Position numbers and translations under genes: made by a program. A stretch of 53,507 bases of DNA from Bacteroidales bacterium (lineage in GTDB: Bacteria > Bacteroidota > Bacteroidia > Bacteroidales > F082): NCBI GenBank assembly GCA_017439405.1, contig JAFSJF010000032.1, positions 1 to 53,507 on the forward strand, written 5' to 3'. The notes below the pieces were generated by a model. The model did not search any database and was not told where the DNA came from. It worked only from the letters and a program-made list of their open reading frames with translations. Shown here one piece after another: positions 4,703 through 48,403 of this stretch (positions are counted from its first letter, which is position 1; every line of letters starts with the position of its first letter).

Positions 4703-6214
4703 ATGGACCAAAGAATTGCCATGAACCCCAATCGTCTGGTGCAGTACCTCCAGAAGCCTGCAGCAGAGTTCACTCGCGCCGACATCATCCGTTATTGCGA
4801 GGAAAATGAAATCGAATTCGTCAACTTCCACTATTGTGGCTGGGACGGCAAGCTGAAAACCCTCAACTTCGTGATTCACAGCGCCGAACACCTTGAGAAC
4901 ATCCTCACCGCTGGTGAACGCGTCGACGGCTCGAGCCTCTTCCCCTTCATCGAAGCCGGAAAGAGTGACCTGTATGTGGTGCCGAAGTACAAGACCGCCT
5001 TCCGCAACCCCTTTACCGAAGTGCCTACCGTCGACATCCTCTGTTCGTTCTACAACCGCGACGGCGAGCCTTTCGAAAGCTCACCCGAACACATCCTTCA
5101 CAAAGCTCACGAAGTGTTCAAGAAAACCACGGGCTTGCAAATGGAAACGATGGGCGAGCTGGAATATTACATCATCGCCGACGACGAGGAAATCTACGAA
5201 GTGCCCGACCAAAAGGGCTACCACGAGAGTGCCCCGTTCAACAAGTTCACCGAATATCGCGTGGAGGCCATGCGCCTCATCGCCCAAGCTGGTGGCTTGA
5301 TTAAATACGGTCACTCCGAAGTGGGCAACTTCACCCACGACGGCAAGATATACGAACAGAACGAAATCGAGTTCCTGCCCACCAACATCGAGGATGCCGC
5401 CGACCAACTCGTGGTCGCCAAGTGGATCATGCGCCAGTTGGCCTACGAATATGGTGTCACCTTGACCTTCGCCCCGAAGATCACTGTGGGCAAGGCCGGA
5501 TCGGGAATGCACGTCCACTGCAAGTTCACGAAGGACGGCAAGAGCGTGATGGTCAACAAGGGTGAACTCAGCGACTACGGCAAGAAAGCCATCGCCGGCT
5601 ACATGGACGCTGGCACTTCGCTGCCTGCCTTCGGCAACCCCAACCCGCTGTCGTTCCTCCGCTTGGTGCCTCATCAGGAAGCCCCGACTTCGCTGTGCTG
5701 GTCTTATTCAAACCGCAGTGCCTTGGTGCGTGTGCCGCTCGGCTGGATCAACAATGGCAAGGACATGGCCGCCAACGCCAACCCGCTGGAGAAGAAGTCG
5801 AACAAGGATTTCAGCGAGAAGCAGACCTTCGAATGGCGCGCCTCCGACGGTTGCGCCGACATGTACCTGCTGATGGCCGCCCTCTGCGCCGCCGCCCGTC
5901 ACGGCTTCGAGATGCCCAACGCGCTTGAAGTCGCCGAAAAGACCTACGTCGGCCTCGGCGTCAACATCCACGACGACAAGAACAAGAAATTGCAGGAGTC
6001 GCTGGAACAACTGCCCGACAGCTGCGTGGCCGCCGCCAAGGAACTGGCCAAGGACCGCGAGATCTACACCGCCAAGGGCGTGTTCTCCGACAGCATCGTC
6101 GACTATATGATCAAGTTCCTCACCAACTTCAACGACGCCAACCTCCGCAAGGAACTCGGCAACGACACCGAGAAGATTTTGAAATTGGTGAAGGACAACA
6201 TTCATGTGGGATAA
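4703..6214 (+). CDS. glnA: glutamine synthetase, type I-like
   Basis: The 503-residue cytoplasmic enzyme makes glutamine from glutamate, ammonia and ATP, the main ammonium assimilation step. The N-terminal beta-grasp domain has NFHYCGWDGKLKTLNF near residue 39 and ERVDGSSLFPF near 71. The catalytic domain follows with ELEYYI near 150, YEQNEIEF near 220 (metal-binding glutamates), GSGMHVH near 263 and SNRSALVRVP near 336. Length fits the 470-500 residue class. An in-frame ATG at 4721 is an alternative start, but the leader block ends right at 4703. Regulation by the long repeat-bearing leader is possible and untested. Confidence 0.95.
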   Translation: MDQRIAMNPNRLVQYLQKPAAEFTRADIIRYCEENEIEFVNFHYCGWDGKLKTLNFVIHSAEHLENILTAGERVDGSSLFPFIEAGKSDLYVVPKYKTAFRNPFTEVPTVDILCSFYNRDGEPFESSPEHILHKAHEVFKKTTGLQMETMGELEYYIIADDEEIYEVPDQKGYHESAPFNKFTEYRVEAMRLIAQAGGLIKYGHSEVGNFTHDGKIYEQNEIEFLPTNIEDAADQLVVAKWIMRQLAYEYGVTLTFAPKITVGKAGSGMHVHCKFTKDGKSVMVNKGELSDYGKKAIAGYMDAGTSLPAFGNPNPLSFLRLVPHQEAPTSLCWSYSNRSALVRVPLGWINNGKDMAANANPLEKKSNKDFSEKQTFEWRASDGCADMYLLMAALCAAARHGFEMPNALEVAEKTYVGLGVNIHDDKNKKLQESLEQLPDSCVAAAKELAKDREIYTAKGVFSDSIVDYMIKFLTNFNDANLRKELGNDTEKILKLVKDNIHVG

Positions 6215-6231: not shown

Positions 6232-6259
6232 GTAGAGACGTAGCGCGCTACGTCTCTAC
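6232..6259. repeat. perfect 28-base palindrome, GTAGAGACG family (intergenic copy)
   Basis: GTAGAGACGTAGCG is followed immediately by its exact reverse complement, 17 bases after the glnA stop and 20 before the next start codon. It can fold into a strong hairpin and may end the glnA transcript. The same outer arms occur inside a coding region at 45963-46000. Confidence 0.85.
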
Positions 6260-6279: not shown

Positions 6280-8091
6280 ATGGCCATGACAAAGGACAAA
6301 TTCAACTGGAAATTTTGCCTTTGTTGTGGCCTTTTCGTTTGGTTTGTCGTCAACCTGTTGCAGGGCATCTTCACCGAAATACAGGAAGACGAGGCCTATT
6401 ACCACCTTTGGGGCGAGCATCTCGCCTGGGGCTATTTCGACCACCCGCCCATGGTGGCTTTGATGACTTGGCTAAGCAGCAAATTGTTTACGGGAACTTT
6501 GGGCGTGAGGTTTTTCACGATTGTTGCATCGTGTTTATCATTGTTCGTCATCTGGAAAACGGCATCCTTCAATTGTCTGCCACAATGTGACAATACATGG
6601 CTGCCACAATGTGACAGCCCTACAACTGACAACTCTACACTGCTCTTTTTCACAATCGCCTGCTCCGTCGTGATGTTCAACATCTACGGCTTCGTCGCCA
6701 CGCCAGATGCGAGCTTGATTCTTTTTTCGGCTCTGTTTCTCCTTGTGTATCAGCGATATTTGGAGGAAAACACATGGCCTCGCGTCGCGCTGATGGGCTT
6801 GATGATGGCCCTGATGGTTTACAGCAAGTACCACGCTTTCCTGTTTTTGGGCCTGATTGTGCTCTCCAACCTCAAATTGCTGAAAGACGGCAAGTTCTAT
6901 GTGGCCTGCCTCGTGGCTTTGGCTTTGCTGATGCCGCATATCATCTGGCAAGTCAACAACGGTTTCCCGAGTTTCCGCTACCACCTATCAGGACGCAGCG
7001 AGCCTTTCCGTTGGAGCTATTTCCTCGAATATCTGCCTAACCAATTGCTGGTTTTCAATCCGTTCACGTTTGGCGCTGTGGCGTATGTATTGATTAAGGA
7101 TTGGGGTTGTGTCCGAATCGCCCCTGCCCCACTTTCACACTCCCAGCCCCCTCGTAAGGGAGAAAAGCTGACACCTGCCGGCGATTTCGAGCGGGGACTG
7201 AAATACATTCTCGTCGGATTCTTCTTTTTCTTCTGGCTGATGGCTTTCCGTGGGCATGTGGAGCCGCATTGGACCATCGTATGTGTCATACCCGTTGTGG
7301 TTTTGGTCTATCGCAAGGCATTGGTTGACAGAAAACTCTTGAATTACACCAAACGTTTCATCTTGCCTTCACTCTTTTTGGTTTTGGCCTTCAGATTCCT
7401 CCTGTTGACTCCATTGGTTGACCGTTTCGGCTATCATGGCAAGGAAGCTTATTACAAGGCCGTCCAGACCGTGGCAGGCGAGCATCCTGTCGTGTTCCAG
7501 GGTTCTTTTCAGAGACCTTCACTGTATCATTACTTTACGAATAACAAAAGTTCCTCGCTTAAAGCTTATTACGACCGCATGACGCAGTTCGACCTCTGGC
7601 AGTTCGACACGGCGTGGGTGGGTCAGCCGGTGTTCGTGTGTGGTCCCGTGCTGAATATGTCAGAGGTAATCGAAGCTGGTAACCAATGTGTTGAAGGCTA
7701 TCTGATGCAACGTTTCCAGTCGCCCAACCGCTTGGTAACGGAGTTTCGCGTCACCAATTTTGACGATGCCGAACCGCTCGTGTTGCACTATGGCGACACG
7801 ATAAGGATGGATTTCACCATTCGCAATCCATACGGACAAGCTGTTGATTTCCAAAATGATGAAATGTCAATTGGCATTGCTGCGCAATATCTTTCCACCA
7901 ACGGTTTCGGGTATTGTTTCTACGACAATCGGATTGTGATACCGCCGCATTCCACTTACTCAGGCCGTTTGTTCACAATCGTGACCGAAAACATCGGGAT
8001 TGGGCCAAACGAACTGACACTCGGATTGGGCGACGGCATCGCTTCCTTCGTCACGGAGGGAAGTCGTGCCAGGGTGAGAATCATGGAGTGA
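6280..8091 (+). CDS. membrane glycosyltransferase, GT39/ArnT-like
   Basis: This 603-residue polytopic membrane protein belongs to the PMT/ArnT superfamily, which transfers a sugar from a polyprenyl-phosphate donor on the outer face of the inner membrane. The first helix is followed by the diagnostic acidic loop IQEDEAYYHLWGEHLAWGYF with DHPP after it. About nine further helices follow, including VVMFNIYGFVATPDASLILF and GFFFFFWLMAF, then a soluble beta-rich C-terminal domain from about residue 480. Two in-frame low-complexity inserts coincide with repeats: residues about 100-115 (CLPQCDNTWLPQCDSPTTDN) and about 277-302 (CVRIAPAPLSHSQPPRKG and onward). Both fall in loops. The acceptor is unknown. 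ATG 6286 is an alternative start. Confidence 0.85.
   Translation: MAMTKDKFNWKFCLCCGLFVWFVVNLLQGIFTEIQEDEAYYHLWGEHLAWGYFDHPPMVALMTWLSSKLFTGTLGVRFFTIVASCLSLFVIWKTASFNCLPQCDNTWLPQCDSPTTDNSTLLFFTIACSVVMFNIYGFVATPDASLILFSALFLLVYQRYLEENTWPRVALMGLMMALMVYSKYHAFLFLGLIVLSNLKLLKDGKFYVACLVALALLMPHIIWQVNNGFPSFRYHLSGRSEPFRWSYFLEYLPNQLLVFNPFTFGAVAYVLIKDWGCVRIAPAPLSHSQPPRKGEKLTPAGDFERGLKYILVGFFFFFWLMAFRGHVEPHWTIVCVIPVVVLVYRKALVDRKLLNYTKRFILPSLFLVLAFRFLLLTPLVDRFGYHGKEAYYKAVQTVAGEHPVVFQGSFQRPSLYHYFTNNKSSSLKAYYDRMTQFDLWQFDTAWVGQPVFVCGPVLNMSEVIEAGNQCVEGYLMQRFQSPNRLVTEFRVTNFDDAEPLVLHYGDTIRMDFTIRNPYGQAVDFQNDEMSIGIAAQYLSTNGFGYCFYDNRIVIPPHSTYSGRLFTIVTENIGIGPNELTLGLGDGIASFVTEGSRARVRIME
6577..6623. repeat. intragenic palindromic repeat in the glycosyltransferase, GGCTGCCACA family
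   Basis: TGCCACAATGTGACA occurs twice (6578-6592 and within 6599-6623). The second copy, GGCTGCCACAATGTGACAGC then CCTAC, is a near-perfect palindrome (one G-T pair). It is the reverse complement of the element at 39966-39994. It is translated in frame between two transmembrane segments. Confidence 0.8.
7113..7189. repeat. second intragenic insert in the glycosyltransferase, C-run type
   Basis: The insert is framed by CGAATCGCC (7114-7122) and GGCGATTTCG (7180-7189), inverted with one bulged base. Inside it CTCCC (7140-7144) and GGGAG (7158-7162) surround CCCCCTCGTAA. Its C-run core resembles the core of the polA insert. Boundaries are approximate. Confidence 0.45.
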
Positions 8092-36860: not shown

Positions 36861-37342
36861 CAATGGGAGTGAATCCCCGTATGCAGCTGGAACAGCTACG
36901 ATTTCCGGCGGCAATGCCACCAAGGGCGGCGGCATCCTGAACGAAGGCACGCTTGTTATTAATGGTATCAACGCCATCAATATCACAGGCAATACCGCCA
37001 CCGAATGCGGCAGTGGCATCTGGAACAGCGGCACATTAAGCATGACTGGCAACGTCACAGTCAAAAACAACACGAATGACGACGTCTATCTGAAAAAAGG
37101 CACGAAAATCACTACGGGTACACTCACAAGCGAACAGAACAGCATCGGCATCGCCATGGAAGTCGCGGGGGTGTTTACACAAGACTATCAAACCAATAAC
37201 CCAAATAACACCATCCATTTCTTCCCCAACAACAATACCATCTACACCATGGGCTTGAATAACGATGGCGAAGGCTATGTTACGAATAATAGCTATATCG
37301 AATGCTCTTGGAATGCCGACAACAAGCAAGTGGTACTCACCC

Positions 37343-37347
37343 AAAAA
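37343..37347 (+). other. frameshift site 2 in giant gene 1
   Basis: The run of five A in CACCCAAAAATCC would restore the frame if it had six (reading VVLTQKIHSYWYNIYKLEDL). Confidence 0.75.
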
Positions 37348-39742
37348 TCCATTCCTACTGGTACAATATCTATAAACTCGAGGATCTCACGGATTGGAGC
37401 AACCTGAACGGCAATTGGATTGTGGCCGAGGGTGAGATAGTGATAGAGAATGCAGTGGTTTTCGACCCAAGTGCTACCTGGGCGGTTTACCTCATCCTTT
37501 GTGATGGCGCAAAGGTGACGTTCAAGAAGGGCCTGACCATCGGCCAGTTAGTTGGTTTGAATATCTACAGCCAATCCTATGGCGGCAACATGGGTCAGCT
37601 CATTGCCGAAGGAACGAACGACGATGCTGCGGCCATCGGCGGAAAAAGCGGCATGTATGCTGGCAACATTGTCATCCACGGGGGCAACATCAAAGCCACG
37701 GGCGGCAGCGACGTGGCAGGCATCGGCGGCGGTCATGGCAGCTATACTGGCACCGTCGTAAATAGCGGTTTCGGTGAGATTTTGATCTTCGATGGCATCA
37801 TCGAAGCCCAAGGTGGCGAGAACGCCGCTGGCATCGGTTACGGCGACGACAACACCTACAACGACACCTATATGGGTCAAAATAAAATAATCATCTACGG
37901 CGGCACCATCACCGCCACGGGGAAACGCTACGGGTCGGGCATCGGCGTCGGACAAGACAACGGCGCTTGCAACGTCAGCATCAACGGCGGCAATGTCACA
38001 GCAAACAACGAAGCCGATGAGGACGTTAGCGGCAAAGGCATCAAGGCTAACAGCATCACCCTCGGTTGGACCAACGCCACCGACAAGATCCATTCCAGCA
38101 GCTACGAAGGCACCACGGTAGCAGTCACGAGCGGCCAAGCCTTGTATTACGACAACAACGGAAGCCAAGTCTTCCTCTCAGGCACGCCCACAAGCGACCA
38201 AGTCGCTGCCCTTGCCGACAAGGACCTGTTGCCCGCCTCCATCGTCAACTACATTGACGCTAACGGTGCTTCACAAAGCGCTTCCGCCAAAGTTTTATTA
38301 GGCAATGAGAGCACCCTTGCCCCTGGCTGGTATGTGGCCACTGGCACTGTCAACCTCGGCTATCTTTACGGTATAGACGGCAGTTTTAACTTCATCCTCA
38401 GCGACGGTGCCGAAATGAATGTCACAACCGAATCACAACAAAACACTATTTTCCTCCCTAATTCCAGCATGAACATCTACGGCCAAAGCGCAGGCACTGG
38501 AAAGCTTAACGTGAGTGCAAGTAGCAGCGGAAATCAGGAAGTTTTTGCTATCAATTGTGCGGGACGCCTCACCATCAATGGCGGCATCATCAATGCCAGC
38601 GCCACAGGTGGCTCTCAGGGCTCCACAGGTATCATTGCCGGTGGTGTCACCATCAATGCCGGACAAGTGACAGCCACGGGGTCTAAGTACGGTATTTATG
38701 CAAGCAACACCCAAGGCAACATCACCCTCGGCTGGCGCAACACCACCGACTTCATCCATGCAAGCAAATATTCTAGTTATAGGGAGCTTGTTTATGTCGC
38801 CGAAAACAAGACCTTCATTAGTGAAGACGGCAACAGCTATACTTATGATGGCGAAGGTTTAAGCGAAGATGAAATTAACGCCATCGCGGGCAAGACGCTT
38901 TATCCTAACAGCAGCGTTGTGGTGAGGACGATTGAAGGCTACGGCACGGGCAACGACAAGTGGGCGTTCATCGCTTCGCCGGTCGTGGGAAGCCTCACGC
39001 CTGATGAAGTCGGCAACCTTTTGGGGACTCAAATCAGTAACGATCCGGCACTTTACAACTACGACCTCTACCGCCTAAACAACACCATTTGGGAGAACTA
39101 CCATGCCCATGATGGCTTCACTATCGCCAACGGCACAGGCTACCTCTACGCCACCAAGGAACAGAAGAACTTGGTGTTCAGGGGCGAGTTCAACACGGAC
39201 ACCGAGCAGACCCTTTCGGGCCTTGGCGAAGGTTGGAACCTCGTGGGCAACCCGTTCACAACGGCTGCTTACATCAACATGGCCTACTATACGCTGAACA
39301 GCGATGGCTCGGCAATCGTGGCGCAAGAAAACAGCACAACGACCGCCATCGCGCCTTGCACTGGTGTCATCGTGCAGGTTAACGAGAGCCAAACTGTCAT
39401 CTTCAGCACCACGTCGCAGAACGCCGCCAACCAAGGCAGCCTGCAAATCGCCTTGGCACAAGCCAACACACGCGGCAACGCCATGATTGACAACGCCATC
39501 GTGAGCTTCAACGAGGGAGCCAAGTTGGGCAAGTTCTACTTCGGCACGCAGGCCGCCAACGTCTATCTGCCCCAAGGCGGCGAGGACTACGCCATCGCCT
39601 ACAGCGAAGGCCAAGTCGAGATGCCCCTCAACTTCAAGGCCACGAAGGACGGCGAATACACCCTTAGCATCGCCCCCGAAGGCGTGGAGATGAACTACCT
39701 GCACCTCATCGATAATATGACCGGTGCCGATGTGGATCTCAT

Positions 39743-39766
39743 CCCCCTTTTAAGGTGGCAAGGGGG
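39743..39766. repeat. C-run palindromic insert in giant gene 1
   Basis: CCCCCTT (39743-39749) and AAGGGGG (39760-39766) flank TTAAGGTGGC. It is translated in frame as IPLLRWQGG between the ordinary family sequences GADVDL and ATYTFTAKTTDYASRF. Confidence 0.7.
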
Positions 39767-39965
39767 TTTAAACGAACCCGCCACCTACACCTTCACCGCC
39801 AAAACCACCGACTACGCCTCACGCTTCAAATTGGTGTTTTCCGCAGAGGCTGCAAGCGGGGACGCTTGCGAACCTTCGTTTGCCTTCATCAACAACGGCA
39901 ACATCATCGTCAACGGCGAGGGAACCTTGCAGATGGTTGATGTGACGGGACGCGTCATCCGCACT

Positions 39966-39994
39966 GTAGGGCTGTCACAATGTGGCAGCCGTAC
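39966..39994. repeat. palindromic insert in the sorting domain of giant gene 1, GTAGGGCTG family
   Basis: GTAG-GGCTGTCACA-A-TGTGGCAGCC-GTAC; the 10-base arms have one G-T pair. Translated VGLSQCGSRTT inside the sorting domain, just before GMAPGVYVLRL. Related copies lie at 6599-6623 and 40095-40163. Confidence 0.85.
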
Positions 39995-40094
39995 AACGAC
40001 CAGCGGGATGGCGCCTGGCGTTTACGTCCTGCGCCTCGTCAACGGCAACGACGTGAAAACGCAAAAAATAGTCATAGAATAAACGTGGCATCTG

Positions 40095-40163
40095 TAGGGC
40101 TGTCTCATTGTGGCAGCCGCCATGATCATCAAAAATCGGCCGCCCTAATAGGACAGCCCTATA
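40095..40163. repeat. intergenic nested palindrome, GTAGGGCTG family
   Basis: GTAGGGCTGTC (40095-40105) pairs with GACAGCCCTAT (40153-40163), with one mismatch. The left half contains CTCATTGTGGCAGCC like the coding copies. It lies 12 bases behind the stop of giant gene 1 and may terminate it. Confidence 0.8.
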
Positions 40164-40223
40164 AGGCGACCCTCATCGGATTGCCTTTTTCGACCTAAAC
40201 ATCTGACATTCAACATTTTTTCA

Positions 40224-40231
40224 TAATTTTG
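40224..40231 (+). promoter_or_regulatory. -7 promoter element of giant gene 2
   Basis: TAATTTTG followed by CCGCTTC, 46 bases before the ATG at 40277. The leader resembles that of the 36299 gene. Confidence 0.55.
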
Positions 40232-40404
40232 CCGCTTCTTTTCAAACAAGACAACAAACAAGGATAATTCTATAAAATGAACAACTTAAGCTGACTGACC
40301 CAAGTCGCATCGCCGTTGCGGGCACACGGGTCTATGCCTCGATTCCTGAAGGCCAACTCAGCAAGGTGTGCCACCTCATCGACGGCAACGACTATTACGC
40401 GATA

Positions 40405-40407
40405 TGA
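40405..40407 (+). other. in-frame TGA in giant gene 2
   Basis: The frame reads NDYYAI-stop-ITVSGVASVYKYQDG, with clear protein-like sequence on both sides in the same frame. Confidence 0.7.
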
Positions 40408-43028
40408 ATTACGGTTAGCGGAGTCGCTTCGGTTTACAAATATCAAGACGGGAATGCCATCACCATCAGTTACACTGTGAAAGAGGCCGACGGCACCGTG
40501 CTGACGAAAGATGCCGACTATGCGGAGACCATCACGAACAGCGATGGTGAAACCGTGGCCTCCGTCAACGACATCGACGACTACACCTTGACGCTGACGG
40601 TCCTCCCCGCAGCAGGATGCTACGGCTCCTATTCCAAGTCTTTCCGTGTTATCGAAGGAGACGGCACTGGAGGACAACCTTTCCTGATTGATGACGTGGC
40701 AAGTTGGGACCTCTTTGCCCAGCGCGTGAACAATGGAGAGACAGACCTGTATGGCATGTTGGTTGCCGACATCGATCTCGGTGACGACCAGACCATGGTA
40801 GGCACGAGCAACCGGCAGTACAGCGGGCGTTTCGACGGCAACGGCCACACGCTGACGGTTCACTACAACACCACCGCAGAATATACTGCGCCCTTCCGCT
40901 ATGTCAGGGGCGGTCGTATCTACAACCTGCACACGGCAGGCACCATCCAGACCAGCGCCAAGTTTGCGGAAGGTATCGTGGCGGGCCACTACGGCGAGAG
41001 TTCGGCCCTGATGAACTGCAGGTCGAGCGTCACCATCATCTCCTCGTTAAACGGCGATGGCACACACGGAGGCCTTATCGCCAATGCGGATGGCAGCACC
41101 TTCGAAATTCCCCTCTTGAACCATTGTGTCTTCGATGGCAAACTGCTCACTACCAATGGCACCACCTCATGTGGAAGACTGGTGGGATATTGTGCCAAAT
41201 CCTTCCGCGTTTGCTACTGTCTCTATGCTCCTGCTGAATTGGAGGAAGGGGAAACGGAAATTGCATCGGAACAAACGTTTGTCAGGGTTGTCAGTGGCAG
41301 GAACCCCATCATCATCAACAGCTATTACACCCGTACCTTAGGCTCGGCTCAAGGAAACGATGCTTCGGGCTATTCCGCCGAGCAGTTGGCATCACGGTTG
41401 GGCAGCCATTGGCAGGAGGAAGACGGCAACGTCGTTCCCGTCTATGACCGCACCATGCTTCAGGGCGATGGTACACAAAGCTCTCCCTACCTCATCACAA
41501 GCGATGAGGACTGGGAAACATTTGCATACGCGCTCAACTCGGGTTCTCGCATGATAGACATCTACGTAGCGCTCACCAACGACATCACGGTCCGCACCGC
41601 GGCAGGTATCAAGGAAAACAATTTCGATTTCTGTGGTAATCTTGAAGGCAATGGCCATACGATGACCCTCGACATGAACACTTCATCCGACTACGGGGAA
41701 CCTATCCATATCAGCGCAGGCTACATCAACAACCTGCACGTCACGGGCATCCTTCGTACCAGTGGACGGTATGCCGGTGGTTTGGTGGGCTATGCGTCGG
41801 GAGGGGTTGATCTTTACAGCTGTTGGTCGAGCGTCACCATCATCTCGTCCTACAACGGCGAGGGCTACCACGGAGGATTGGTGGGCGTTGACTATTGGAT
41901 GTCGGGCATCGTGCTCCACAATTGTCTCTTCGATGGCAAGCTGCTCACCACTGGCGGCACCACCAATTGCAGTGGACTCGTCGGCGAAGCATATAACCAA
42001 TTGTCCATCTACAACTGCCTTTCGTCGCCCGCCGAACTCGCCGAGGGCGAAACGGCTTGCGGCTCGTGCAACACCTTGTATCATATAGATATGGCAAATG
42101 TAATGCAGGGCCAAGCGAGCAATTACTATTTGCCTGCTCCCTACATGACCACCTTGCAAGGTGACGATGCCTCCCCATACACTCCCGAGGAACTGGTGGG
42201 GCTGTTGGGAAGCGAATGGTCGCTTCTCGATGGCAAGCCTGTTCCCCTTCACCAAGTCTTTGACCTGGTGGGCAGCGGCTCAAACACCGACCCCTATCTG
42301 ATACGCAACGTCGATGACTGGAGGGCCTTTAGCTCCAATGTAAGGTCAGGCAACACGTATGATGACAAGTACTTCTTGATGACCGCCGACATCGACTTGG
42401 GCGATGACCAGTCGATGATCGGAACAAGCCGTTACGGCTTTGGTGGCCATTTCGATGGAGGAGGCTATACCCTCACGGTCCATTACGTCAGCACGGGAGA
42501 TTTCTGCGCGCCTTTCAGTTACCTTAAAAGCAATGAGCACACGTTCAAAAACTTACACACCGCCGGCAGCATCCAAACCAGTGGAAAGTATGCTGCCGGA
42601 ATCATCAGCAATAATAATGGTTATTATGGTTATGTCGCCACGAATACGCTCGAAAAATGCCGCTCGAGTGTCATCATCACCTCCACCAGGGAAGGCGAAG
42701 GGATCATTGGAGGCCTCATAGCAGAGCACTCGGGTCAATTAGTTATATCTAATTGCCTCTTTGACGGAAGTATTCTTGGCGAGAACACCCATACCTGCAG
42801 CGGACTGCTCGGCGTCAATCAAGGTAATCATGTTGGCATCTCCCATAGTCTTTACAATCCAAAAGAGCAGACGGTGGGGACAACCAACAGCTGCACCTTG
42901 GGACGCAATGGGAACAGCTATTATCCCAATGCAGTAGGTTTCACCACCAGCTACTATATTCGCACGTTAGGCACGGCGCAAGGCAACGACGGTTCACAGA
43001 TGACCGGTGCCGAACTGGTGCAGGCCTT

Positions 43029-43032
43029 GGGG
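43029..43032 (+). other. frameshift site in giant gene 2 (G run)
   Basis: TTGGGG-CACAG with a fifth G would read ELVQALGAQNWTLEDGQPIP and join the 40297-43080 frame to the 43047-44288 frame. Confidence 0.75.
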
Positions 43033-44237
43033 CACAGAACTGGACCTTGGAGGACGGCCAACCCATACCGCGCGTGGTGAAGCCCGTGGAACTCAATGGC
43101 TCAGGCACCGAGAACGATCCTTACCTCATCGCCAGCGAACAAGACTGGAACAACTTAGCCAACAACTTGGAGGCGGAAAGAAGCTATCAGGACAAGCACT
43201 TCCTCCAGACCGCCGACATCACCGTCAGCACGATGGCAGGCACCAACGACTACCCCTTCAACGGTATCTACGACGGTGACGGGCATACCCTCACCTTCAA
43301 TGCCGGAACGGCGGATGCCTACCAAAGCGAACAGCACTGCGCTCCGTTCCGGTATGTGAAGAATGCCACGGTAAAGAATCTGTGTACCCAAGGTAACATT
43401 TATACCTCAGCTATGTTTGCCGCAGGTCTCGCATCCTACGTGTCGGGAAACTTCACTGTCACCAACTGCCTGAGCAACATCTCCATCAACTCCAGCGTCG
43501 ATGGCGACGGCACCCATGGCGGTTTCGTGGCAAGAGCCATGGCAGGTGCCACCGTCTTCACAGGTTGCGTGTTCAGCGGGGAGCTGCTGGGCACTACCAC
43601 CCACAGCTGCGGCGGCTTTGTTGGATGGACCGAGACGAACAATGGTGCCACGACTGTCTTCACCAACTGCCTCTTCGCTCCTCAAGCGTGTTCCTTTAAT
43701 TCGAATAATAGCAAGACCTTTTCCCGTGCACGTAACGAAAGCCAGTCGCTCTCCTATAACAACGCATACTATCTTTCCCAGTTGGGCGGTGTCCAAGGCA
43801 AACTGGCCCACAGCATCAGTGGCGGGGAGGCTGTCACCGTAGCACTCGCGGAAGAGACCATCGAGCATCCTGTTAGCGGCATCACCGCCAATGGCACGGG
43901 CATCGAGTACAACGGTGTGGCCCTTGCCAGCCAAGGCGACAACGTGAGCCTCACCTTTGGTGGCACAGCGCCTTCGGGTTATGCCGTTTCCGGCTACGAG
44001 ACGAGCGCGGGAACCCTTACGGGCACGGAGAATCCCTATACGCTGCAGGCCATGCCCAATGCCGACGTCACCATCACAGCCCTCTACGGCCCTGCCGACT
44101 GGGAAACCCTCAACGAAGGCACCGAAGACGACCCCTACCTGATCTACAACACTGGCCAATGGGACCTGCTCTCTACCCGTGTGAACAGCGGCACGGGTTA
44201 TAGTGGCAAGGTCTTCAAGTTGATGGATGACATCAGC

Positions 44238-44246
44238 GTTAACCAT
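44238..44246 (+). other. second frameshift site in giant gene 2
   Basis: The upstream frame ends DDISVN and the correct downstream frame resumes TMVGASKDINFWGTFDGNGH. The five other modules show DI-x-V-x-TM(V/A)G or similar here, so two bases are missing or one is extra. Confidence 0.7.
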
Positions 44247-45813
44247 GGTGGGCGCAAGCAAAGACATCAATTTCTGGGGCACCTTTGACGGAAACGGCCA
44301 CACACTTACCCTAAACTACAATACCACCGAGTCATACACCGCCCCGTTCCGCTATACTCAAGCGGCCACCATCAAAAACCTTCATGTGGATGGCACCATT
44401 GAGACCTCTGGGCAATATGCCGCAGGTTTCTGTGGACGAGTCTACAAAACTACCATCACCAACTGTCGCAGCAGTGTCATCATACGCAGCAGCAAAAGTG
44501 GCTGGGGTGGACATGGCGGCTTCGTGGCACTGAAACCTAACACTACCGGTATAGCCCTCGTCATCGAGGGCTGCGTCTTCGACGGCAAGATCCTGTCCGT
44601 GGGTGAGCAAGCCACCACTTCCTGTGGCGGTTTCGTGGGCTATTCCAGCTATAGCTCCATAACCATAAAGGACTGCCTCTATGCCCCTGCTGCTTTAGCC
44701 GAGGGAGAGACTGCCGTCAGCAATAGCTATACCTTTGCCCAATTGGGTGTCGACCCGCATTTTACGCTCACCAACAGCTATTACACCCTGCCTCTCGGCA
44801 CCGAACAGGGCAAACTCGCCTACCATATCACGGGCGGCACGGGTGTGACCGTGACCCATACGGGTACTGCCACCGACTACGATTTAAGTGGCCTCACCAG
44901 TTATGGTACGGGCCTCCAGTATAATGGCACCCTATACGCTGGCTATGGCGACGCGGTAAGCCTTAACGTCGCGGCACCTGTGAGCCAAATCATTACGGCT
45001 GTCACTTATACCCCTGAAGGCGGCACCGCAACAGTCATCACCCCGGCTGACGGCGTTTATTCTTTCACCATGCCCGATGCCAACGTGGTCATCAACGCCA
45101 CCCTTACACCTGGTTGCACCCTCGACATCGCTGGCTACGGCGACAGCGACGGCGGCTATGTCCTCATCGCTTCGCCTGTAGGGACAGTTAGTCCTGGGAA
45201 TGTGAGCCACATGCTTGACAACGACTTCGACCTCTATCGCTTCAACCAAGCCGCCGACAAGGAATGGGAAAACTACAAGGCTTTAGATCAAAACGACCAA
45301 CCGCTTCATCCAGATTTCACCACGTTGGAAAGTGGCAGAGGCTACCTCTATGCCAGCAAGGAAGATGTCACCCTCATTTTTTCCGGTACCCTTTACGATG
45401 GTGAAGGCACTTTCGACTTGGAGTATTCCACTGAGAACCCGGATGAAGGCATGCATGGCTGGAACCTCATCGGCAACCCGTTCGCCACGGAAGCCACCAT
45501 CGACCAACCTTTTATGAGGATGAACGACGGCGGCACGGCACTTTCGGTGCAAGTGGAAACCGGCAACACCGTGGCGGCCATGGAAGGCGTATTTGTGCAG
45601 GCTACGGCAACGGACCAAACCGCCAGCTTCACGAAAGTCAACAGGGGTAGAAGTGGAGGAAAGAGCATGATACCCATGCTCAACATCAGCCTCAGCCGTA
45701 ATCGTGGCGAAATACTTGCCAACGCCATCGTCCGCTTCGACGGCGGCCAGACCCTCGGCTGCCTATCGCTCCGCGAGGACGACAGCAAGTTCTACATTCC
45801 ACAGAACGGCAAA

Positions 45814-45822
45814 GACTACGCC
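45814..45822 (+). other. junction of an inferred 225-base in-frame deletion
   Basis: In giant gene 1 GACTACGCC occurs at 39585-39593 and 39810-39818, 225 bases apart. In giant gene 2 the sequence before the first copy and after the second copy meet at a single GACTACGCC, so 75 codons are absent. Confidence 0.65.
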
Positions 45823-45962
45823 TCGCGCTTCCGCTTGGTGTTTTCCACAGAGGCTGCAAGCGGCGACGCTTGCGAACCATCGTTTGCCTTCGTCAGCAAC
45901 GGCAACATCATCGTCAACGGCGAGGGATTGTTGCAGGTGGTGGACGTGATGGGGCGCGTTAT

Positions 45963-46000
45963 CGTTTGTAGAGACGCACGTCCGTGCGTCTCTACAAACG
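45963..46000. repeat. palindromic insert in the sorting domain of giant gene 2, GTAGAGACG family
   Basis: CGTTTGTAGAGACGCACG and its exact reverse complement flank a 2-base centre (TC): 18-base perfect arms. Translated VCRDARPCVSTN just before GMTPGVYVLRL. The outer arms match the palindrome at 6232-6259. Confidence 0.9.
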
Positions 46001-46110
46001 GGATGACACCCGGCGTTTACGTTTTGCGCCTCATCAATGGCAACGACGTAAAAACGCAGAAGATTGTCATTGAATGACTTGCAGGAATGCCAGCAAGTCA
46101 GGGTTTCAAC

Positions 46111-46142
46111 AAAGCCGACGGCGCAAGTTGTCGGCTTTTTTT
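46111..46142 (+). terminator. rho-independent terminator of giant gene 2
   Basis: AAGCCGAC pairs over 8 bases with GTCGGCTT around a 10-base loop and runs into seven T. Confidence 0.85.
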
Positions 46143-46174
46143 ATGCCCAACCTTCCCGTTTCAACAATTATCCT

Positions 46175-46182
46175 TATTTTTG
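46175..46182 (+). promoter_or_regulatory. -7 promoter element for metG-dnaG
   Basis: TATTTTTG followed by CACCC. The ATG is 160 bases away, so metG has a long leader. Confidence 0.6.
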
Positions 46183-46291
46183 CACCCGTTTTCCTCCCCC
46201 AAATAAAACGACCACAAAAACGGAGGAACAACTGAAAGAACGAATTGAGGAGATTGCCACAGCCAACGGCCTCACAATGGACATACTAAAC

Positions 46292-46336
46292 AACTGAATA
46301 ACTGAACAACTGAATAACTGAACAACTGAATAATTG
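46292..46336 (+). repeat. 16-base tandem repeat in the metG leader
   Basis: AACTGAATAACTGAAC occurs at 46292-46307 and 46308-46323, with a partial third copy to 46336, ending 6 bases before the metG ATG. Upstream an open stretch (EEQLKERIEEIATANGLTMDIL, starting near 46223) has no ordinary start codon; I do not call it a gene. Confidence 0.85.
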
Positions 46337-46342
46337 TTTACC

Positions 46343-48403
46343 ATGGAATCAACGAACAAACCCTTCAAGCGTTACACTGTAACCACGGCCTTGCCCTACG
46401 CCAACGGCCCTGTCCACATCGGTCACTTGGCCGGCGTTTATATCCCTGCCGACACCTATGTCCGCTACCTGCGATTGTGCGGCGCTGAGGTGCTGTTTGT
46501 CGGTGGTTCCGACGAGCACGGCGTCCCGATTACCATAAAGGCCGAGAAAGAGGGCGTCACGCCGCAAGATATTGTAGATCGCTACCACGCCATCATCAAG
46601 AAGTCGTTCGAGGAGTTGGGCATCAGCTACGACATCTACTCGCGCACCTCGTCGAAGATGCACCGCACCACGGCACAGGAGTTTTTCAAGAAGCTCTACG
46701 ACGAAGGCAAGTTCATCGAGAAGGAGACCGAGCAATATTTCGACCCGGAACGACAGAAGTTCTTGAGCGACAGATATATCGTCGGCACCTGCCCGAAATG
46801 CGGCGCGGATGGCGCCTACGGCGACCAATGCGAGAAATGCGGCTCGTCACTTAGCCCCGACGAACTCATCAACCCGCATTCGCAACTCAGCGGCGCGGCC
46901 TTGGTGAAGAAACCAACCAAGCATTGGTACTTGCCTTTAGACCAATACGAGCAATGGCTCCGCGAGTGGATCCTCGAAGGCCATAAGGAATGGAAACCCA
47001 ACGTTTACGGCCAAGTGAAGAGCTGGCTCGACGGCGGATTGCAGCCCCGCGCCGTCACCCGCGACCTCGACTGGGGCGTGCCCGTCCCGATTGAAGGTGC
47101 CGACGGCAAGGTGCTCTATGTGTGGTTCGACGCGCCCATTGGCTACATCAGCAACACCAAGGAGATTTGCGAACAACGCGGCGAGAATTGGGAAAAATGG
47201 TGGAAAGACCCCGAAACCAAGTTAGTGCACTTCATCGGCAAGGACAACATCGTGTTCCACTGCATCATCTTCCCCTGCATGTTGAAGGCTTACGGCAACT
47301 ACATCGTCCCCGAAAACGTGCCCGCCAACGAGTTCCTCAACCTCGAAAACGACAAGATCTCGACTTCGCGCAACTGGGCCGTGTGGCTGCACGAATACCT
47401 ACAGGAATTCCCTGGAAAGCAAGATGTTCTGCGCTACGTCCTGACCGCCAACGCGCCTGAAACCAAGGACAACAACTTCACCTGGAAGGACTACCAAGAC
47501 CGCAACAACAACGAGCTGTTGGCCATCTTCGGCAACTTCGTCAACCGCACCCTTGTGCTGACGCATAAGTTCTACGAAGGTGCCGTTCCCGCTTTGGGCA
47601 CCCTCAACGACACCGACAAGGCCACCATCGAGGAAATGAACGCATACCCCGCGAAAATCGGTCACCTCGTCGAGACCTACAAATTCCGCGAAGCCCTCGG
47701 CGAACTGATGAACCTTGCCCGACTTGGCAACAAATACCTCACCGACAACGAGCCTTGGAAGCAAATCAAGACCGACCCCGAAAGGGTGAAGACCGTGATG
47801 GCTCTGAGCTTGCAGATTGTGGCACATTTGGCCATCTTGAGCGAGCCTTTCCTGCCCTTCAGCGCGAAGAAACTGCAAAAGATGATTGGCCTCGACGTGA
47901 AGGGCTGGAATGATGCCGAAAACACCGTTTTGCTGCCCGAAGGCCACGTCATCAACCAGCCGGAACTGCTGTTCGAGAAGGTTGAGGATAGTGTTGTTGC
48001 GGCGCAGTTGCAGAAATTGGAAGACACCAAGAAAGCCAACCAACTCAACGCCTGGAAGCCCGCCGAGGTGAAGCCTGTGGTCAGCTTCGACGACTTCATG
48101 AAGGTCGACATTCGCGTGGGCACCATCCTCGAATGCCAAAAGGTGCCGAAGGCCGACAAATTGCTCCAATTCCTCATCGACGACGGAATGCAGAAGCGCA
48201 CCATCGTGAGCGGCATCGCCAAGTATTACACCGAGCCTGAGAAACTTGTGGGCAAGCAGGTGTGCTTCATCGCCAACTTCGAGCCGCGCAAGCTGAAAGG
48301 CGTGGTCAGCGAGGGCATGATCCTTTCCGCCGAGGACAAGGACGGTCGGCTCGTTCTGCTCACCCCGAGCGATTTGGTGACGCCCGGCTGCAACGTGGGA
48401 TAA
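46343..48403 (+). CDS. metG: methionyl-tRNA synthetase
   Basis: The 686-residue class I synthetase charges initiator and elongator tRNA-Met. The HIGH motif is PVHIGHLAG near residue 19. The four-cysteine zinc knuckle is [18 protein letters not shown] near 150, and the KMSKS loop is the variant NDKISTSRN near 336. The C-terminal tRNA-binding (EMAP II-like) domain runs from about 585 ([20 protein letters not shown]) to the end. The ATG at 46343 follows the leader repeats; the frame upstream begins at a non-ATG codon. dnaG follows after 12 bases. Confidence 0.97.

Follow-up and report, generated by a model that had tools for sequence, protein, structure and literature searches.

A single loop of the C-terminal sorting domain of the type IX secretion system (T9SS) carries palindromes of different repeat types in two paralogous cargo genes, here genes A and B, of a Bacteroidales bacterium, and the same loop is occupied by such elements in many genes and genomes. 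The window analysed is the whole contig JAFSJF010000032.1 (C12; 53,507 nucleotides) of a draft genome of 3.53 Mb in 159 contigs (GCA_017439405.1), and the site, loop 2, lies after a D-V-x-G-R stretch and before a G-V-Y-V-L-R strand of the domain. In our judgement, repetitive extragenic palindromes (REPs) spread by REP-associated tyrosine transposases (RAYTs) probably entered this permissive loop, stayed there as coding sequence and have been swapped, in part by conversion between paralogs.

Gene A is the open reading frame (ORF) 37302-40082, and the final ORF of gene B spans 44227-46077. Their T9SS type A sorting domains with linker, at 39840..40079 and 45844..46074 on the forward strand, match TIGR04183 at 32.7 and 26.5 bits (cut-off 23), and both domains abut the stop codon and so form the extreme C-terminus; with Pfam PF18962, gene A scores 20.1, below the cut-off of 27, and gene B is absent from the matches. 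The two ends are 79.9% identical in DNA over 273 bp, and 77% over the 80-aa query. Between GRVI and GM(A/T)PGVYVLRL, gene A holds the palindrome TGTAGGGCTGTCACAATGTGGCAGCCGTACA (39965..39995, forward strand), a type A REP composed of GTAG and GGCTGTCACA..TGTGGCAGCC that codes TVGLSQCGSRT. At the same point gene B holds the perfect palindrome CGTTTGTAGAGACGCACGTCCGTGCGTCTCTACAAACG (45963..46000, forward strand), a type B double-foot REP of the form GTAGAGACG-CACGTCCGTG-CGTCTCTAC that codes CRDARPCVST, with this unit at 45968-45995 and pairing that extends 5 bp further on each side. The sequence-only reading, which had proposed two paralogous sorting domains with different palindromes at one point, is thus confirmed, and the motifs it quoted are present. 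Its description of the two as unrelated elements does not hold: both loop palindromes are GTAG-tagged REP-like elements, hence of a related kind, and both are tied to RAYT-like genes. The double-foot form (GTAG...CTAC) has been defined for REPs of subclass 2.4 REP transposases (PMC6006769), and a palindrome with GT[AG]G at its 5′ and C[TC]AC at its 3′ end is found at 45968-45995 and in 46 further copies.

The elements are dispersed through the genome. The type B pattern, GTAGAGACG-N6-12-CGTCTCTAC, has 47 matches and the type A pattern, GGCTGTCRY-N2-8-GGCAGCC, which did not require GTAG, has 71, while the reversed control patterns have none. Type A copies that lie in the window or next to RAYT-like genes bear a terminal GTAG, and 15 of the 17 type A neighbour pairs within 100 bp lie on opposite strands as inverted dimers. 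Nearly all genomes of the genus (39 of 40) have type B, as do 37 of 119 sampled across the order. When intact, a type B REP is free of stops in two of its three reading phases, giving ..CRD....VST.. or ..VET....ASL...

Both types lie next to and within RAYT-like genes. Matches to the REP transposase model NF047646 (E <= 1e-5) occur in 27 of the 40 genus genomes, and in 8 they exceed its cut-off. The own genome has three, on contigs C135 (90.3 bits, cut-off 80), C118 (46.8) and C60 (35.7). The C135 gene is flanked by GGTTCGCAAGCGTCCCGCTTGC (type E), the C60 gene sits between type A copies, and the C118 gene contains CAAAATTTTG-like type B copies, with another copy upstream. Copies of several type B cores flank further RAYT-like genes, mostly ones below the cut-off. 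An ORF with a HUH motif is present in 58 of the 66 scanned loci with a model match and absent from 8; an element of type A, B or D lies behind the HUH motif in 26 of these 58 ORFs, and 32 have none. For 17 RAYT-like genes, elements are present both inside and beside the gene, and in 13 of them the internal class agrees with the flanking class; shuffling gives 2.2 on average and never reaches 13 in 20000 trials, a figure weakened by classes drawn up after the sequences had been seen and by related RAYTs that are not independent. Two of the four mismatches, L423 and L439, combine an internal type D element with type A outside. In L464 the two cores, TTGCGCGCAA and TAGCGCGCTA, are related to each other, and in L429 the class scan overlooks a flanking CAAAATCTTG copy that is present. 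The core CACGGCCGTG, one base from the gene B core CACGTCCGTG, is internal in L421, L440, L441 and L444 and flanking in L443, all of them relatives. We infer that RAYTs did the moving. Subclass 2.4 tnpA-REP (RAYT) genes are abundant in Bacteroidetes, and in-frame REPs within subclass 2.4 transposase genes have already been published (PMC6006769); REPs inside RAYT genes were accordingly dropped as a novelty. The C135 RAYT (L214:891-1538), with its GGTTCGCAAGCGTCCCGCTTGC flanks, lies directly 3′ of a sorting-domain gene, and this cassette is absent at that place in five relatives.

Sorting domains of the own genome hold more of these elements than synonymous controls. Among 150 TIGR04183 domains scored of 173 candidates (domains found later on C155 and C56 lie outside this set), the best hairpin is at least 11 in 10 domains vs 0 of 1200 synonymous-codon shuffles, and by reading nine of the ten are type B and one is another palindrome. 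At a limit of at least 10 the numbers are 14 of 150 vs 5 of 1200, and by reading all except the C66 domain carry type A or type B REPs. As a sample this set is incomplete, yet less biased than the cross-species rows below. Exact type B copies fall in these domains in 6 of 47 cases, where 0.42 is expected from their 0.9% share of the genome (binomial P 3.8e-6), and the six are split three and three between the two phases. In a second clade of sorting domains (VEIVNALGMVVET..RASLQ), the equivalent loop carries type B read in the alternative phase.

Reading in context places 14 of the 44 type B copies that are distinct by flank, out of 47, in the C-terminal modules of such cargo genes (count by reading). 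Four type B sites recur: loop 2, loop 1, a site before YETNAVVGSF (iii) and a site before (E)IPVNF (iv), with variable cores at iii and iv. Site iv shows net insertion, as four empty forms have 16 aa and those with one or two type B elements have 22, 22, 24, 25 and 35 aa, while another member has a different inserted stretch and 27 aa; these lengths come from 10 sequences hand-picked from 17 rows and further site iv rows. Two elements stand in a row at site iv of L003. At site iv of L234 the inserted stretch, ARPSLRGTKQEAIQT, looks by eye like another dispersed repeat read in frame.

Across species, loop 2 was compared in 125 domain rows, drawn from this genome, from others of its genus and from 80 Bacteroidales loci in metagenome-assembled genomes (MAGs), of ruminant gut where titles tell. 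A loop hairpin of at least 8 is present in 55 of the 125 rows vs 18 of 1250 synonymous shuffles, a 44% share that is not an unbiased frequency, as the MAG loci are the best 80 of 367 relatives, rows were gathered by similarity to palindrome-bearing queries, motif-failing domains were dropped and two rows are double (L341, L359). With a limit of at least 10 the counts are 31 and 2. Hairpins of at least 8 occur in 14 of 125 equal-length upstream stretches, which are mostly ascribed to loop 1 elements, and in 4 of 125 downstream remainders. Type B is recognised in the loop of 26 rows within 2 substitutions and of 45 within 3, vs 3 and 11 of 1000 shuffles, and 25 of the 26 good elements share one phase. 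A scan allowing 5 substitutions was dropped as evidence in favour of limits 2 and 3, since 126 of 500 synonymous shuffles pass it; class counts made at the loose limit are descriptive only.

More than ten cores can be told apart at loop 2, including GTGTGCACAC, CACGTCCGTG, CAATGCATTG, GTGCATGCAC, TTGCGCGCAA, CGATGAATCG, TTTCAGGAAA, TCATATTATGG, GGACGCATCGAATGCGTCC, GGACACACGCGGTGTGTCC and type A. In fifteen rows (one double) the loop is made of tandem heptamers or related repeats instead, with units such as CAACTGC, TTTCACC and ATTCCGC (L071, L077, L080, L246, L256-L260, L267, L359, L383, L397, L402), and other rows have ordinary sequence, for example SSETVNGSVSKAINA. Uninterrupted versions of the loop, one of the points that the sequence-only reading proposed to check, exist. 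To judge by its sequence, loop 2 would be a beta-hairpin turn; a PDB sequence search with the gene B domain gave a single weak match (E 0.4).

A comparison of orthologs shows that the loop can change while its surroundings do not. The loci G012:C58 and G018:C5 share a collinear stretch of 7,453 bp (88.2% identity), and their domain flanks are 97 and 98% identical, whereas the loop, GTTCAGACGGTGTGCACACCGTCTCTAC in G012 and TGTAGGGACGCATCGCATGCGTCC in G018, is 63% identical, with a differing stretch of about 60 bp. This is local replacement, and the simplest event would be a short conversion in the G018 line, because RUG13092 (L328) has the loop of G012 and the loop of G018 is nearly identical to that of the G012 tandem paralog. 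For the same reason a fresh REP arrival, considered for this pair, was set back, conversion from a paralog being at least as likely. A search with the G012 loop gave its tandem paralog at 73%, and other matches barely exceed the 30-bp element, the longest covering query 17-65 at 78%. A weaker case is the locus before mfd (named by reading its translation), where at least four different loops occur among six genomes. These are 83-93% alike downstream of the domain, but the cargo ends are mostly only 60-84% identical. This locus also has, in the own genome, a RAYT cassette 3′ of the sorting domain that is missing from five relatives. Loop switching is not the rule between relatives, as similar loops (identity at least 0.78) are kept in 19 of 39 syntenic pairs. 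We infer that the swapping is gene conversion.

We therefore picture loop 2 as a permissive coding site at which REPs spread by RAYTs would have come to sit in frame and would have been retained as ordinary protein sequence. Whole loops would later have been traded between paralogous sorting domains by short-tract replacement, that is, gene conversion, possibly together with renewed arrival of REPs, and the outcome would be paralogs and orthologs whose REPs at this point stem from different transposase lineages. A bolder form of this picture, which we hold to be rather improbable, makes the loop a genus-wide docking cassette to which REPs of many transposase lineages are repeatedly delivered and exchanged, with variation of the secretion or anchoring tag being useful in itself; such variation could then serve, for example, cargo recognition, cleavage or display.

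Several observations weigh against the entry of RAYT-spread REPs into loop 2. The C60 and C118 RAYT-like genes score below the NF047646 cut-off of 80, and the exact core of gene B was found neither in nor beside the RAYT-like genes examined, the nearest being CACGGCCGTG in relatives. Mean loop 2 length is 18.7 aa with a hairpin of at least 8 and 19.4 aa with a hairpin below 6; with no net gain in length, plain insertion is not what loop 2 shows, and the element has to be taken as a substitute for earlier loop sequence. Neither an empty site nor a target duplication came to light there. The element at site iv of L005 is placed, by reading, so that its phase begins with a TAG stop, which means that not every copy is in frame. 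The G012 genome, which is 80% complete, yielded no donor that shares the flanks of its loop, and all genomes are drafts, mostly MAGs.

Two other accounts of the pattern at loop 2 are about equally improbable. In the first, the transposase targets the loop, or REPs already in it, which would make it a true insertion hot spot and not merely a tolerated site. The six of 47 exact copies within 0.9% of the genome, the two consecutive elements at site iv of L003 and the variable cores at the fixed sites iii and iv would fit this, but other members fill the loop with heptamer repeats that are not REPs, several other protein sites are used and no common target motif has been established. The preferred site or positional exchange put forward by the sequence-only reading thus stands as regards a recurrent site and exchange among paralogs and syntenic orthologs, but not as regards a target preference of the machinery, because a tolerant loop, filled elsewhere by heptamer repeats and accompanied by three further type B sites, explains the pattern equally well.

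In the second account, a palindrome entered once in an ancestor and was copied by gene duplication, and its cores were remade by quasi-palindrome correction, in which template switching copies one arm onto the other. Similar arms with varying cores, and the single phase of nearly all good type B elements at loop 2 of the clade (25/26), are what one would expect from it. Yet several cores match dispersed cores and those in or beside RAYT-like genes, types A and B are unlike in arms and phase, type B in the equivalent loop of the other sorting-domain clade is read in the alternative phase, and orthologs change the entire loop despite near-identical flanks. Compensated arm changes, moreover, are nearly absent.

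The distribution of those arm changes also bears on what is selected. Among 52 loop elements, 90 changes fall in the left arm and 26 in the right, and none of these 116 is compensated, a count biased low because elements had to lie within 4 arm substitutions to be accepted; with the limit relaxed to 5 substitutions, which lets in many chance matches, 60 elements have 4 compensated changes. The right arm codes VST, which fits the domain. The near absence of compensation and the VST-coding right arm point to protein constraint and not to a working hairpin, and selection would thus act on the protein rather than on the DNA palindrome. An unlikely alternative is selection for a nucleic-acid structure, in DNA or RNA, that the palindromes would form close to the 3′ end of cargo genes and that would serve mRNA stability, pausing or attenuation. 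The elements do end about 26 codons ahead of the stop, REPs behind genes have been proposed to act on RNA (PMC3733652), and an inverted pair of type A-like REPs lies just 3′ of the gene A stop (40094..40162, edges by eye; matches at 40095 on the forward and 40152 on the reverse strand). Against this, pairing is freely lost, and the loop hairpin is below 6 in 55 of the 125 rows. A draft-assembly or binning artefact from collapsed repeats, to which the draft state of the genomes and the differing frames of gene B might lead, is very improbable, as the pattern is found again at one codon position across many different assemblies, where the flanks are unique and the frame is kept.

Intragenic REPs are themselves known, including GTAG/CGTC REPs (Di Nocera 2013, PMC3733652), a source that mentions CGTC repeats for Bacteroidetes among other phyla. 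The closest likeness in that work is REPs in ORFs, among them recB of two Xanthomonas species, which has different REPs at about the same site; it stresses varied proteins and repair genes, whereas here one loop is affected in many members of one secreted domain family. In PMC6006769 the REPs lie in frame in transposase genes, while those described here recur in a T9SS sorting-domain loop with types that differ among paralogs and orthologs. Rickettsia palindromic elements (RPEs) are likewise selfish palindromes read in frame in proteins, but they measure 105-146 bp (PMC2229807), and the elements at loop 2, with 28-31 bp and no effect on length, fall outside that size. PARCEL shares dyad-symmetric coding DNA in membrane and surface proteins that is thought to be shuffled within genomes, but consists of tandem 25-residue repeats, unlike the lone element, some 10 codons long, in each loop here; its abstract mentions no RAYT link (PMC2996958). 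No earlier description of palindromes in T9SS sorting domains was found in a literature search with little coverage of subscription journals. What appears to be new here is REP-derived coding sequence that recurs and is exchanged at one loop of a secretion tag.

The hosts are uncultured gut bacteria, many from ruminants, in which the loop repeat differs between sister genes and between species. REPs, usually seen as extragenic regulators or parasites, are here part of a fixed loop in a large family of secreted proteins and switch among orthologs. The system offers a natural test bed for REP movement, in which donor core, acceptor loop and flanks can all be read, and also for the tolerance or use of arbitrary loop sequence by sorting domains. 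It also calls for caution, as palindrome filters or repeat masking would strike coding sequence in these genomes.

The designation of both genes as giant cargo genes by the sequence-only reading needs qualification for gene B, whose cargo part is split in this assembly over three overlapping ORFs in differing frames (40477-43080, 43047-44288 and 44227-46077); these frame changes reflect either a decayed gene or assembly errors. Outside loop 2, the linker of gene A contains the palindrome GCAAGCGGGGACGCTTGC (39852..39869, forward strand) and gene B the type E-like palindrome GCAAGCGGCGACGCTTGC (45856..45873, forward strand), each coding ASGDAC as read from the sequence; GCAAGCGGGGACGCTTGC closely resembles the type E element beside the RAYT gene on contig C135, with one extra loop base. 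A type B REP with core TAGCGCGCTA was found by pattern match at 6232..6259, between the ORFs 4703-6214 and 6280-8091. An Rfam search of 39000-46400 gave no match up to E 1.

Repeats are also read in frame elsewhere in these genomes. On contig C80, the neighbouring ORFs L219:548 and L219:1596 each carry an in-frame type B REP; by their motifs, they resemble Sir2-type and macrodomain proteins. GPSTGSGT-like peptides, encoded by CCCTTCGACAGGCTCAGGG-type DNA, occur in loop 1, the linker or elsewhere in L236, L242, L247, L251, L254, L255 and L270, and this repeat type is intergenic as well. In the window, a AACTGAAT/AACTGAAC tandem repeat, noted by eye, lies at 46292-46336 upstream of a metG-like gene.

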